In this document: piece by piece, positions 19,418 through 21,826 of the stretch
Numbering within the stretch: the stretch's first letter is position 1
How the letters are laid out: the number at the start of each line of letters is the position of its first letter
IMG/VR virus record: IMGVR_UViG_3300042691_001823
Location: 1-23,013 of that record
Origin: a virus
Direction: 5' to 3' (one strand)
DNA: 23,013 nucleotides
The notes under the pieces: generated by a model
What the model was told of the DNA's origin: nothing
What the model saw: only the letters and a program-made list of their open reading frames with translations
The model's database searches: none
Made by a program: the position numbers and the translations under genes

Positions 19418-20617
19418 TTAGCCCCAGATGCGGCAACCCATTTGTGGACGGATCGTGTTGTAGCCATACAGCACGTCAACACGGCAAGGCATACGGTCGT
19501 TGTTGATGTCGTACTGACGAACAACGCGCAGGCTGATACCGTTGTGAACGGCACGGCTAGCCATGTCAACGCCTTGTGGCAGCAACAGGTCAGCAGTGGC
19601 GAACGCGATGGCGTCACGGTGGTACACCATGTTCTGTGGGTAGCTGGTCGAAGCAGCACCAACAAACACGACAGCCTTGCCAGTGGCAGGCAAGGACACC
19701 ATAGTGCACAGGGCGTTACCAGCCGAGTACATAGGAGCCACGGTCACAGTAGCTGTGGTGCTGGAAGTCGAAGACGACAAGGCCACGAACTGGAACAGCG
19801 AACCGGTGGACTCACGAGTCTGTGGGTTGGCAGCGAAGCAGTCGGCGATGGTGAACACGTCACCAACAGCGATGGTTTCACCGGAACCGACAGTCAGAGT
19901 CAGAGTGGTTGCGCCTTCGGAGGTCACAGCAGCGCCAGTTGTGTTGCCAGTGGCAGCACGGGTACCGCAGGTGTGAACCTTGATCGACTGGCTCATGTTG
20001 ACTTCTTCGTAGCCCAACACTTGCTCACCCATCATGCCGTTTTTGAACTGGCGAGAGATGACATCTGTGGGGTTGAAGAAACCGGACAGGCCGTTCACCA
20101 ATGCAGCGTTGGCGGCAGGGTTCACGGTAGCGTAACGAGGCGACATGGTGGCGGCGTTCTCGTTCAGCTTCTGCTGGGCTTGCAACAGCACCAAAGCGGT
20201 AGCGGGGGCAACGCCGGGGGTACCGACACTGTTACCGATCAGCTTGTATGCGTTGGCAACGTCAGCATCCACAGTGGAGGCCAACTGGCTGATACGTGGC
20301 TTCAAGACACGCTCTGCGAAGTCGTCCAACTGCATGGTCAATTCAGCGGATGTGAAGTTGATGCCGATGTGCTTCTGGCTGGAGACAGTCAGAGTGGTGA
20401 ACTGTTCGTTGTCGTCCTGAACTTGCAGGGCGGCACCGTCAGTGACCAGAGCGCGGTCGGGCAAACGGATACGCAGTGTAGAACCGATCTTGGCACCTTC
20501 AACAGCGAAGCTGTCGTCGTACTGACGGTTTACGTTGCGGGTGATCACAAGGTTGTTTTCCAAAATCTCTAAAGATTTTCTTGTGATCATGTCAATGGTG
20601 AGAAGCGAGTTACTCAT
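19418..20617 (-). CDS. Major coat protein, P22 gp5-like
   Basis: A 399-residue protein (P22 coat is 430). It starts with SLLTIDMITRKSLEILENNL then VITRNVNRQYDDSFA, the N-arm of the P22 coat family, and continues IGSTLRIRLPDRALVTDGAA, VSSQKHIGINFTSAELTMQL and FAERVLKPRISQLASTVDAD, all recognisable as HK97-fold parts. Residues about 215-285 (TGNTTGAAVTSEGATTLTLT and FTIADCFAANPQTRESTGSL) would be the inserted I-like domain. It ends in LLPQGVDMASRAVHNGISLR, then the P-domain with the VDVLYGYNTIRPQMGCRIWG tail. It forms the capsid shell with help from the scaffold encoded 15 bases upstream. The ribosome leader is AGGAAATCATCATG, and a terminator follows. Confidence 0.95.
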   Translation of the reverse strand: MSNSLLTIDMITRKSLEILENNLVITRNVNRQYDDSFAVEGAKIGSTLRIRLPDRALVTDGAALQVQDDNEQFTTLTVSSQKHIGINFTSAELTMQLDDFAERVLKPRISQLASTVDADVANAYKLIGNSVGTPGVAPATALVLLQAQQKLNENAATMSPRYATVNPAANAALVNGLSGFFNPTDVISRQFKNGMMGEQVLGYEEVNMSQSIKVHTCGTRAATGNTTGAAVTSEGATTLTLTVGSGETIAVGDVFTIADCFAANPQTRESTGSLFQFVALSSSTSSTTATVTVAPMYSAGNALCTMVSLPATGKAVVFVGAASTSYPQNMVYHRDAIAFATADLLLPQGVDMASRAVHNGISLRVVRQYDINNDRMPCRVDVLYGYNTIRPQMGCRIWG

Positions 20618-20632
20618 GATGATTTCCTAAAA

Positions 20633-21430
20633 TTAGCGGTTGCGAAGTGCCCGTGCCTTGTCGAGTTGTCGTTGACGCTCGGCAGCAATCCAGTCCTGAA
20701 CACTCATGGTCTTGATAGACCGAGGATCGGTGGTGTCAGTGACACCGGGGTTTACTGCTCGTGCAGTCACCGGACGAATCGGGTCAGGTGCGGACGAAGT
20801 TTTCTTTTGGAAAGGTTCGGCAGTTATCTTAGCCTCAATCTTTCCGATTTCTCGCGCTTGCAACAGTGGCGACAGACGAGAGATGCGATCAGCTTCTTTG
20901 GGGTTGCTGCCCAGCCAGTAGGCCAGATCAGGTCCAATGTCAGAGCTTTTGATTGTCTCGGCCATCACATCGGTGACTCGGAGATTCGGGTTGTAGGCGA
21001 CTTGTTCAAAGTCGTCGTACTTGTTCCGAACTTCTTCCTCACGTTCTGCGTAGCTGTCCTCAATCGCTGCTTTTTGCTTCTGGAGTTCACGCTGGTGGAG
21101 CATCTCCTCGGCCCGCTTGACTGCCAGTGCTTCCGCATAGGCTTCAGGGGACTCAAATTGATCCACAGGCGGGAGTTCCTTGGGCACCGATTGCCGCACT
21201 TGCATCTCTGCTTGCTTGGCTTGCTGCTCACGTTCCCATTTGCGCTGTTCTCTTGCGAGGCGCTTGCCGATCATCGAATCGAGTTCAGCTTGAGAGAATT
21301 TCTTCTCCTCGGGTGTCTCGTTACTCTGGTCAGCGACTTCCGGCAGATTTTGTGCATTGTCCGAGGTGGCCGTCACTTCGGGTGCTGGCGCGGAGTCTAC
21401 TTCCGCTAGGTTTTGGACTTCATCAGTCAT
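20633..21430 (-). CDS. Scaffolding protein
   Basis: A 265-residue, very charged helical protein (P22 gp8 is 303). The N-terminal about 45 residues are acidic and disordered. A long coiled coil follows (FSQAELDSMIGKRLAREQRK, EREQQAKQAEMQVRQS, EALAVKRAEEMLHQRELQKQ). After a middle region the basic C-terminus has VQDWIAAERQRQLDKARALR, the likely coat-binding helix, as in P22 gp8. Location directly before the coat gene supports the call. Its start has only a weak GAG ribosome site, lying in the right arm of an AACTCA-TG-TGAGTT dyad. Confidence 0.88.
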   Translation of the reverse strand: MTDEVQNLAEVDSAPAPEVTATSDNAQNLPEVADQSNETPEEKKFSQAELDSMIGKRLAREQRKWEREQQAKQAEMQVRQSVPKELPPVDQFESPEAYAEALAVKRAEEMLHQRELQKQKAAIEDSYAEREEEVRNKYDDFEQVAYNPNLRVTDVMAETIKSSDIGPDLAYWLGSNPKEADRISRLSPLLQAREIGKIEAKITAEPFQKKTSSAPDPIRPVTARAVNPGVTDTTDPRSIKTMSVQDWIAAERQRQLDKARALRNR

Positions 21431-21434
21431 TTGT

Positions 21435-21448
21435 AACTCATGTGAGTT
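21435..21448 (-). promoter_or_regulatory. Dyad over the scaffold ribosome-binding site
   Basis: Read on the minus strand, AACTCACATGAGTT is a perfect palindromic element (5-bp stem AACTC/GAGTT with loop ACAT). The GAG in its right arm is the only ribosome-site-like sequence before the scaffold ATG, six bases away. Folding would hide it. P22 scaffolding protein is known to reduce its own synthesis after transcription, so an RNA target here is plausible. Confidence 0.4.
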
Positions 21449-21491
21449 CTCGGTCTACTGGGCCGATACAGTGGGTTTATCTTACAGCAGA

Positions 21492-21737
21492 TTACTCTGA
21501 CTGTGCAACAGATGCTTTGTAGGCTGCGATTACAGCGGCTGTGTGTGTTGCCTTACAGATTGCTTGCACTTTAGCATCTTCACCACTTACGTCAGCACCG
21601 GGGGCGACAACGTGACGGTGGAACTTGCTGCCGATTTCAACGCCATCTTCTTTAATGACGGTTTTGGTGCGAACTTGAATGCAGCCGTTTTCGACAACTT
21701 CAATCAGATCGACAGAGATGACTTTTTCAAGAGACAT
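21492..21737 (-). CDS. Conserved small phage protein, unknown
   Basis: An 81-residue protein: a beta-rich first half (VISVDLIEVVENGCIQVRTK; TVIKEDGVEIGSKFHRHVVA) followed by PGADVSGEDAKVQAICKATH and a C-terminal helix (TAAVIAAYKASVAQ). The KEDG-EIG-FHRHVV-PG-D-SGED motif is familiar from small proteins beside phage tail fibre genes, with no assigned function. The ribosome site is AAGGAAA. It lies between the short acidic protein and the scaffold gene. The fold suggests a small chaperone or cap for the fibre (inference, weak). Confidence 0.75.
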   Translation of the reverse strand: MSLEKVISVDLIEVVENGCIQVRTKTVIKEDGVEIGSKFHRHVVAPGADVSGEDAKVQAICKATHTAAVIAAYKASVAQSE

Positions 21738-21752
21738 GATATTTCCTTGCTT

Positions 21753-21799
21753 CCAGCCACGGCATCCACCGTGGCATTAAGGCTGGTGGGCCGCACCAG
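21753..21799 (-). other. Paired, mutually exclusive hairpins before the 81-residue gene
   Basis: The 89-base gap 21738-21826 contains two stems: GCCACGG (21756-21762) with CCGTGGC (21769-21775), and CTGGTG (21783-21788) with CACCAG (21794-21799). CCAGCC (21753-21758) can also pair with GGCTGG (21781-21786), competing with both. An AT-rich stretch with TTTAAT on the minus strand (21817-21812) lies upstream and could be a -10 element, without a clear -35. Confidence 0.4.
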
Positions 21800-21826
21800 T
21801 ACGGGTTAACAATTAAAGACTTATTT

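Follow-up and report, generated by a model that had tools for sequence, protein, structure and literature searches.

The scaffolding protein of phage P22 lowers its own synthesis at the post-transcriptional level, a property that has been known for decades. The literature searched, which excluded the original P22 papers, yielded no account of an RNA target of P22-like scaffolds. The closest described RNA elements are those of T4, T2 and RB69. According to excerpts of the published reports, the leader of T4 gene 32 harbours a pseudoknot 5' of the phage ribosome site, and in all three phages an autogenous translational repressor nucleates at the gene 32 pseudoknot (PMC535899, PMC3014915). A different arrangement, likewise documented in an excerpted source, is that of the split ribosome sites of T4 genes 25 and 38, where a hairpin intervenes between the AUG and a purine tract further upstream (PMC3014915).

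The window analysed here is a stretch of viral DNA of 23,013 nucleotides. Its minus strand carries a small gene of 81 codons (21492..21737; PHROG 6228, E 4.1e-22), the gene for a scaffold protein of 265 aa (20633..21430, ATG 21430-21428; PHROG 8865 head scaffolding, E 5.5e-31) and, directly downstream of the latter, a coat protein gene of the P22 type (19418..20617; PF11651, E 1.3e-35; PHROG 283). Neither the 81-aa protein nor the window scaffold protein taken alone gave a Pfam match, and a profile of nine family scaffolds matched the P22 scaffolding protein chains 9kyw/8i1v in the PDB (E 1.5e-5). The coat family and the scaffold profile thus bear out an earlier note on this DNA, which had called the phage P22-like.

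The same note had pointed to a dyad before the scaffold start as a possible autoregulatory RNA element. The dyad indeed forms a 5-bp hairpin, termed H2 (AACTC-ACAT-GAGTT, 21435..21448, minus strand), with the arms AACTC (21448-21444) and GAGTT (21439-21435), the loop ACAT (21443-21440) and a spacer ACAA (21434-21431) that separates it from the scaffold ATG. A GAG is held in the stem as proposed, yet it is not the sole such triplet before the ATG, as a second GAG (21451-21449) is found just 5' of the stem. By itself, as a single-sequence fold, H2 is unremarkable: the 45-nt leader of the window has a folding energy of -7.7 kcal/mol (z = -0.91), and equally stable folds arise in 29 of 200 shuffles. 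At this z value, folding energy was set aside as evidence for the element. A four-codon reading frame, noticed by eye inside H2 of the window, was also dropped, since the loop with its ATG varies among relatives.

Comparison of leaders indicates that the dyad is the 3' half of a larger element, which comprises a predicted H-type pseudoknot (PK), a linker G, H2, a short spacer and the scaffold ATG. The PK core of 22 nt (21450..21471, minus strand) was delineated by covariation on 36 unique cores and on the scaffold tree. Its helix S1 pairs CTG (21471-21469) with CAG (21460-21458), and helix S2 pairs TCGGCC (21466-21461) with GACCGA (21455-21450), including one C.A opposition; the loops are TA (L1, 21468-21467) and TA (L3, 21457-21456), and the linker G occupies position 21449. 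The general plan consists of S1 with 3 bp, L1 with the bases UA, S2 with approximately 6 bp, no spacer between the helices and an L3 of approximately 2 nt, followed on the 3' side by one linker G, H2 of 4-6 bp, a spacer of mostly 3-7 nt and the start codon. As in the excerpted accounts of T4, T2 and RB69 gene 32, a pseudoknot in the leader of a phage gene thus lies 5' of a ribosome site. The window knot is smaller than its gene 32 counterpart as given there (22 versus about 28 nt), it ends 1 nt before a triplet-holding hairpin, whereas the gene 32 knot adjoins an unstructured A+U-rich stretch, and it is found before scaffold genes as well as before a second gene.

The scaffold profile yielded a usable start in 430 of the 448 collected loci with a match, and 320 of these 430 leaders were assigned to the window clade by score and locus set. 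Since many loci are repeats of the same contig, unique sequences were counted. The PK core is present in 319 of the 320 window-clade leaders (the exception is L136) and comes in 43 unique forms. The core 5' of the linker G has the form NNNN-TA-S2-loop-S2', where the bases before TA pair with loop bases, and S1 occurs as CTG/CAG, CCG/CGG, ACG/CGT or CCT/AGG. The entry conditions for window-clade cores were pairing of columns 7-10 with 20-23, a TA before S2, a G in S2 and a G after it; pairing of S1 was not among them. The linker G, invariant in the alignments A2 and A3, is therefore partly preselected. Alignment A2 comprises the 36 unique cores with 9-nt loops and leaves out the other 7 of the 43, which have 8-nt loops.

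Across these 36 cores, a 3-bp S1 together with a 6-bp S2 is paired in 90.1% of the cells, compared to 74.3% after shuffling, and the covariation amounts to 0.486 versus 0.198 (0 of 500 shuffles); slid versions of the structure are paired in 23-45%. S1, which was not used in the choice of rows, is paired in 81.9% versus 69.9% of the cells when taken as four pairs. Pair 12-18 appears as GC, CG, UA and AU and is unbroken in 36/36 cores and in 138/138 rows of the scaffold tree, the latter including pattern-search rows in which S1 and columns 12 and 18 were fixed. Pair 11-19 is U-A, U-G or an opposed C.A. On the tree of 138 leaders, the pairs 3-14, 7-23, 8-22 and 12-18 change 24, 17, 21 and 22 times, respectively, counts that may be inflated by pattern-found rows and leader recombination and do not all stand for separate mutations. 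On supported branches, both sides change together in 12/12 independent pairs for 3-14 and in 11/11 each for 7-23, 8-22 and 12-18. Two crossing helices, each with compensatory changes at the sequence level, are thus found, the hallmark of an H-type pseudoknot, and with this covariation the RNA structure may be regarded as good as shown.

The same data bear on the reading that the dyad is a DNA-level operator or a chance repeat without any role as RNA. Short dyads are common, and the unremarkable single-sequence fold would suit such a reading; it is contradicted by covariation, as the letters change while the pairing stays, crossing pairs included, and the element hardly varies in orientation or in its distance from the start codon. 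We consider it extremely improbable.

A longer hairpin, in which S2 is extended by columns 11-13 paired with 17-19, was weighed as a replacement for the PK. It is paired in 82.5% of the cells with a covariation of 0.421 and was rejected, because the pairs 11-19 and 13-17 each fail in 22 of the 36 rows; pair 12-18 was kept within S2. In rows such as L064 the longer hairpin is the plain energy minimum and competes with the PK. A four-base S1 (column 1 with 16) is paired in 20 of 36 rows without compensatory change, and S1 was accordingly trimmed to three pairs. S1 also fails in some leaders: pairing is poor in five loci of the L047 group, and 16 of 138 leaders lack pair 4-13. As a duplex, S1 CUG/CAG contributes -0.1 kcal/mol, and due to this weakness the PK may need help to form. 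A PK finder run on the L001 leader, which is identical to that of the window, gave a score matched by 8 of 300 shuffles. Searches of Rfam 15 produced no match to the window leaders at E values up to 5, and with the cutoff at E 1 the leaders of 11 loci yielded none either, save for one off-target match (E 0.56) on the other strand inside the L285 scaffold gene.

The earlier note had named a lack of conservation first among the outcomes that would refute its proposal, and on this point the proposal holds. In a first set of relatives, made up of the best 80 of 432 viral loci (scaffold identity 74-100%), the letters of the dyad vary, its pairing stays and a second conserved structure is located immediately 5'. 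In the window clade, 312 of 319 leaders retain H2 with no fewer than 4 consecutive base pairs, and the arms come in 20 different combinations, among them GAATC/GATTC, GTTCC/GGAAC, AACTC/GAGTT, GATTC/GAATC, GTTTC/GAAAC and ACTC/GAGT. Counted on unique leader tails, it occurs in 99 of 102 (shuffled mean 20.4, maximum 31), and a stem of at least 5 bp is found in 89 of 102 as compared to 6.9 in shuffled tails. Owing to this conservation across the clade, the dyad is more than chance. Alignment A3 admits only rows whose H2 has 5 perfect base pairs and a loop of 4 nt, and the H2 figure obtained from A3 is given by construction and is no evidence.

The notion of a ribosome site held in the stem survives in a widened form. 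At the border between loop and 3' arm of H2, a GGA (58), GAG (20) or AGG (17) is present in 95 of the 99 unique H2-bearing leaders (the 7 of 319 leaders lacking H2 were not counted), whereas shuffles average 38.3 with a maximum of 52, and hairpins flipped with their pairing kept reach 46 of 99. For 91 of these 95 leaders the distance between triplet and start codon is 6-10 nt, and in all 95 the stem takes up two or three bases of the triplet. GAG as such had to be dropped as a conserved feature, since only 19 of the 99 have it in the 3' arm or in the spacer. In the window, the triplet is the GAG at 21439-21437, the best-placed ribosome-site triplet there. Shine-Dalgarno sequences (SDs) of three bases or fewer are found at 35 of 65 scaffold starts versus 11 of 55 coat starts, and the scaffold starts are hence the weaker ones.

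Place, orientation and triplet suggest that the element likely acts on the message in cis. As it is positioned before the scaffold gene in many P22-like phages, and before a second gene in some, it probably sets the amount of protein made from the message. A cis-acting RNA leader that gates the access of ribosomes to the scaffold message is a proposal we regard as evenly balanced between right and wrong. Folded H2 would hold the weak triplet and slow ribosome binding; the PK, one base away, would stack on H2 and, alone or with a bound protein, would decide whether H2 stays shut. The sister clade around MW202483 lacks H2 and adds two variants of this arrangement. In 10 of its 29 unique leaders, one of the 29 starts being doubtful, a gap of 4-7 nt separates the PK from the start codon, and the closest triplet is the AGG with which S2 ends; in such leaders the PK would cover the ribosome site itself. 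Another 18 leaders have a gap of 12-18 nt, and an ordinary SD is free between PK and start codon, which runs counter to gating, as does a free AAGGA at the second gene of the window. Among the readings considered, gating fits the scaffold leaders best, a judgement that we hold with middling confidence.

The position of H2 also allows a different assignment of the ribosome site. The actual SD might be the purine run formed by the end of S2 and the linker, hidden by the PK, and H2 might be a structured spacer. A match of at least three bases to the anti-SD is present at the S2 end and linker in 309 of 312 leaders, and in 312 of 319 the start codon follows this tract at a distance of 18-23 nt, which an H2 of 12-16 nt would shorten to approximately 5. 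In the excerpted source, the hairpins of T4 genes 38 and 25 bridge 22 to 5 and 27 to 11 nt, respectively (PMC3014915). The conservation of the tract is not independent evidence, as S2 pairing and the entry rule fix most of its letters. Furthermore, in distinction to the T4 genes 25 and 38 as described in that source, H2 itself contains a triplet at a suitable distance, and the purine run upstream belongs to a pseudoknot. A split site is distinctly unlikely in our estimation.

Gating by a pseudoknot, the preferred reading, draws on more distant phages as well. The scaffold leader of BA3 contains the PK ACCG TA CCAGTG CGGT T CACTGG, those of Vibrio 1.183 and Shewanella X14 contain GGC TA CCAGTG GCC TTT CACTGG, and that of VvAW1 contains AGC TA CCCATG GCT T CATGGG. 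MW202573 has GCG CCA CTGGA CGC AT TCCAG, and MW202483 with its clade has CCG A CTAGC CGG ATA GCTAG. The same topology with other letters also precedes the scaffold genes of MW202674, MW202691 and MW202557. Over 15 scaffold leaders, the PK finder gave a combined p of 1.8e-7 (Fisher), which is approximate, as some of them are related (e.g., BA3 and Vibrio 1.183); single PK-bearing leaders range from 0/300 (BA3) to 14/300 (MW202557) shuffles. Among the scaffold leaders, the finder gave no PK for EBPR podovirus 1, P22 and L541 and no significant one for P26218 (124/300) and PBR31 (46/300). The 13 coat leaders gave a combined p of 0.99; an exception among them is PBR31 (L287, before 1861), which shows a high-scoring PK (1/300). 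In the whole genomes of BA3 and VvAW1, the scaffold leader is the only TA-type match at a score of at least 22. Nine other gene starts of P22 yielded a lowest value of 16/300 (gene 7), and the lowest value among 11 other gene starts of the window, 1/300, led to a second copy of the PK.

P22 shares with the window a homologous scaffold and coat, and its clade has a compensatory hairpin at a similar place; it differs in that the PK was not found there and in that its hairpin lies within the end of the portal gene. A search for a PK holding across the P22 clade was given up, as none did. The P22 hairpin, CGGC-N6-GCCG, is located 28-41 nt before gene 8 (L452 3852-3865, end of gene 1), and it is replaced by CGCC-N6-GGCG in Tatumella and Xenorhabdus loci and by CGTC-N6-GACG in Rosenbergiella. 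In 12 distinct rows, 93.8% of the cells are paired compared to 80.0% after shuffling (0 of 500). All double changes fall on a single pair and the Proteus row deviates from the structure, so that the covariation evidence for this putative hairpin is modest.

The second copy in the window, CCG-TA-CTGGTG-CGG-CC-CACCAG (21783..21804, minus strand), emerged from the PK finder and from related leaders and precedes the 81-codon PHROG 6228 gene, 45 nt from its ATG and with a free AAGGA. It is followed by a 7-bp hairpin, GCCACGG-TGGATG-CCGTGGC (21756..21775, minus strand), with a GGA in the loop. Leaders of the PHROG 6228 family contain CCG/CGG or CTG/CAG forms of the PK in 22 unique sequences, and a stem after the PK is present in 21 of the 22. 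A gene-agnostic pattern search with one degenerate form retrieved at least 119 stretches of the viral collection. Among the 117 matches listed, 94 are located before scaffold genes, 13 before PHROG 6228 genes and 10 before other or cut-off frames. By eye, L568 and L648 of these 10 resemble cut-off scaffolds, L628 and L677 resemble cut-off PHROG 6228 genes, L590 ends its contig, and L593, L606, L630, L644 and L667 are other or chance matches. The element is therefore not confined to one gene: the same PK stands before scaffold genes and before PHROG 6228 genes.

Targets of CsrA/RsmA follow an ANGGA rule, and hairpins with a GGA at or near the tip followed by AAGGA, as at 21775-21756 in the window and as H2 of relatives, resemble such targets.

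One reading builds on this motif and holds that CsrA/RsmA or a similar GGA-binding regulator recognizes a GGA presented near the tip of the hairpin after the PK. GGA is found at the tip in 62 of the 99 unique H2 and in the loops of second-gene hairpins (e.g., TGGATG in the window), and the Vibrio phage VvAW1 has an annotated CsrA-like gene. However, GGA also forms part of the Shine-Dalgarno sequence, and this accounts for its presence equally well; 37 of the 99 H2 lack a GGA at the tip, including that of the window, and CsrA needs no pseudoknot. We deem this regulator very unlikely.

Upstream of the scaffold PK, the window has a weak promoter-like site, TGCACA-17-TAAGAT (21479..21507, minus strand; score 8 of 12 in the L001 leader), whose second hexamer is separated from the ACTG of the PK by 6 nt. 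Among relatives, sigma-70-like promoters with a score of at least 9 of 12 occur in 95 of 180 unique upstream sequences versus 8 of 180 shuffled ones. In the commonest arrangement, seen in 54 of the 95 good promoters, 6 nt lie between the -10 hexamer and the ACTG, and hence transcripts would begin at about the PK. The promoter spacers (L019, L029, L061 and others) often hold a variable inverted repeat, such as CACCGGG-GCAA-CCCGGTG in L029, perhaps another structure or an operator.

A start of transcription at the PK would suit a ligand-free stabilizer or insulator, which would shield the 5' end or the border of a cistron, delay the entry of RNase E and render the scaffold-coat message long-lived; a structure that is kept while its sequence is free accords with this role. 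The PK is not always 5'-terminal, however: an open frame terminates no more than approximately 7 nt ahead of 22 of 137 scaffold leaders, and the second-gene PK of L589, L600 and L601 immediately follows the end of an ORF. A plain hairpin would suffice for protection, and the conserved triplet and the distances to the start codon point to translation. Overall, protection of the message appears rather unlikely.

The preferred reading of a gate for ribosomes acquires a named regulator if the scaffold protein itself is the ligand. As an autogenous operator, the PK and hairpin would be bound by free scaffold protein, which would shut off its own synthesis until assembly consumes it, and the second leader would be a second target. 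P22 scaffold lowers its own synthesis after transcription, and a covarying hairpin precedes gene 8 of P22; most of the listed gene-agnostic matches (94 of 117) are found before scaffold genes. T4 gene 32, as far as the excerpted reports describe it, provides a precedent (PMC535899, PMC3014915). The second copy, at an unrelated gene in 13 of the 117 listed matches, is the main fact against a target at the scaffold gene only. There are 23 PHROG 6228 places, two of them on one contig, and a scaffold frame follows within the next 1.5 kb in 12. Eight of the other 11, each with at least 1.5 kb to the right, show no scaffold gene in that stretch; one of them, L669, has a scaffold elsewhere, and the remaining seven are without a scaffold match in contig stretches of 4.5-14.5 kb, fragments of phages that may have one. 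Two of these seven, L601 and L664, carry PHROG 3287 virion proteins. Since extra targets of one regulator are possible, the second copy lowers the probability of an autogenous operator and does not exclude it. Further points against it are that P22 is without the PK, that leader types switch often between related scaffolds on the tree, and that the two knots of the window share 9 of 18 paired letters and differ in the other half. A common reader would therefore go by shape more than by sequence, or else the fold would be ligand-free. Scaffold feedback is possible but doubtful; it is not fully exclusive of message protection or of a split site, nor are these two of one another.

A bolder version, which we put forward as speculative and unlikely, is that a mobile pseudoknot-hairpin leader, recognized by shape rather more than by its letters, is the target of scaffold feedback in P22-like phages and unites the scaffold and the small second protein in one post-transcriptional regulon. 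If true, this would add a second viral example of a pseudoknot that serves as an operator in autoregulated translation. In any event, a precisely defined and conserved RNA, divisible into S1, S2, linker, H2 and triplet, is now available for P22 relatives, and P22 itself has a smaller covarying hairpin, so that single changes in the stems could test the question of scaffold feedback.

The gene before the PK copy has tail or tailspike matches in L589, L600, L601 and L669 and belongs to a gene family without assignment in L664. With a tail or tailspike neighbour in four of the five contigs examined, a tail module may carry such leaders between phages. At L630 2043, a leader of the scaffold type including H2 stands before a different frame of 86 aa, perhaps due to recombination or an assembly joint.
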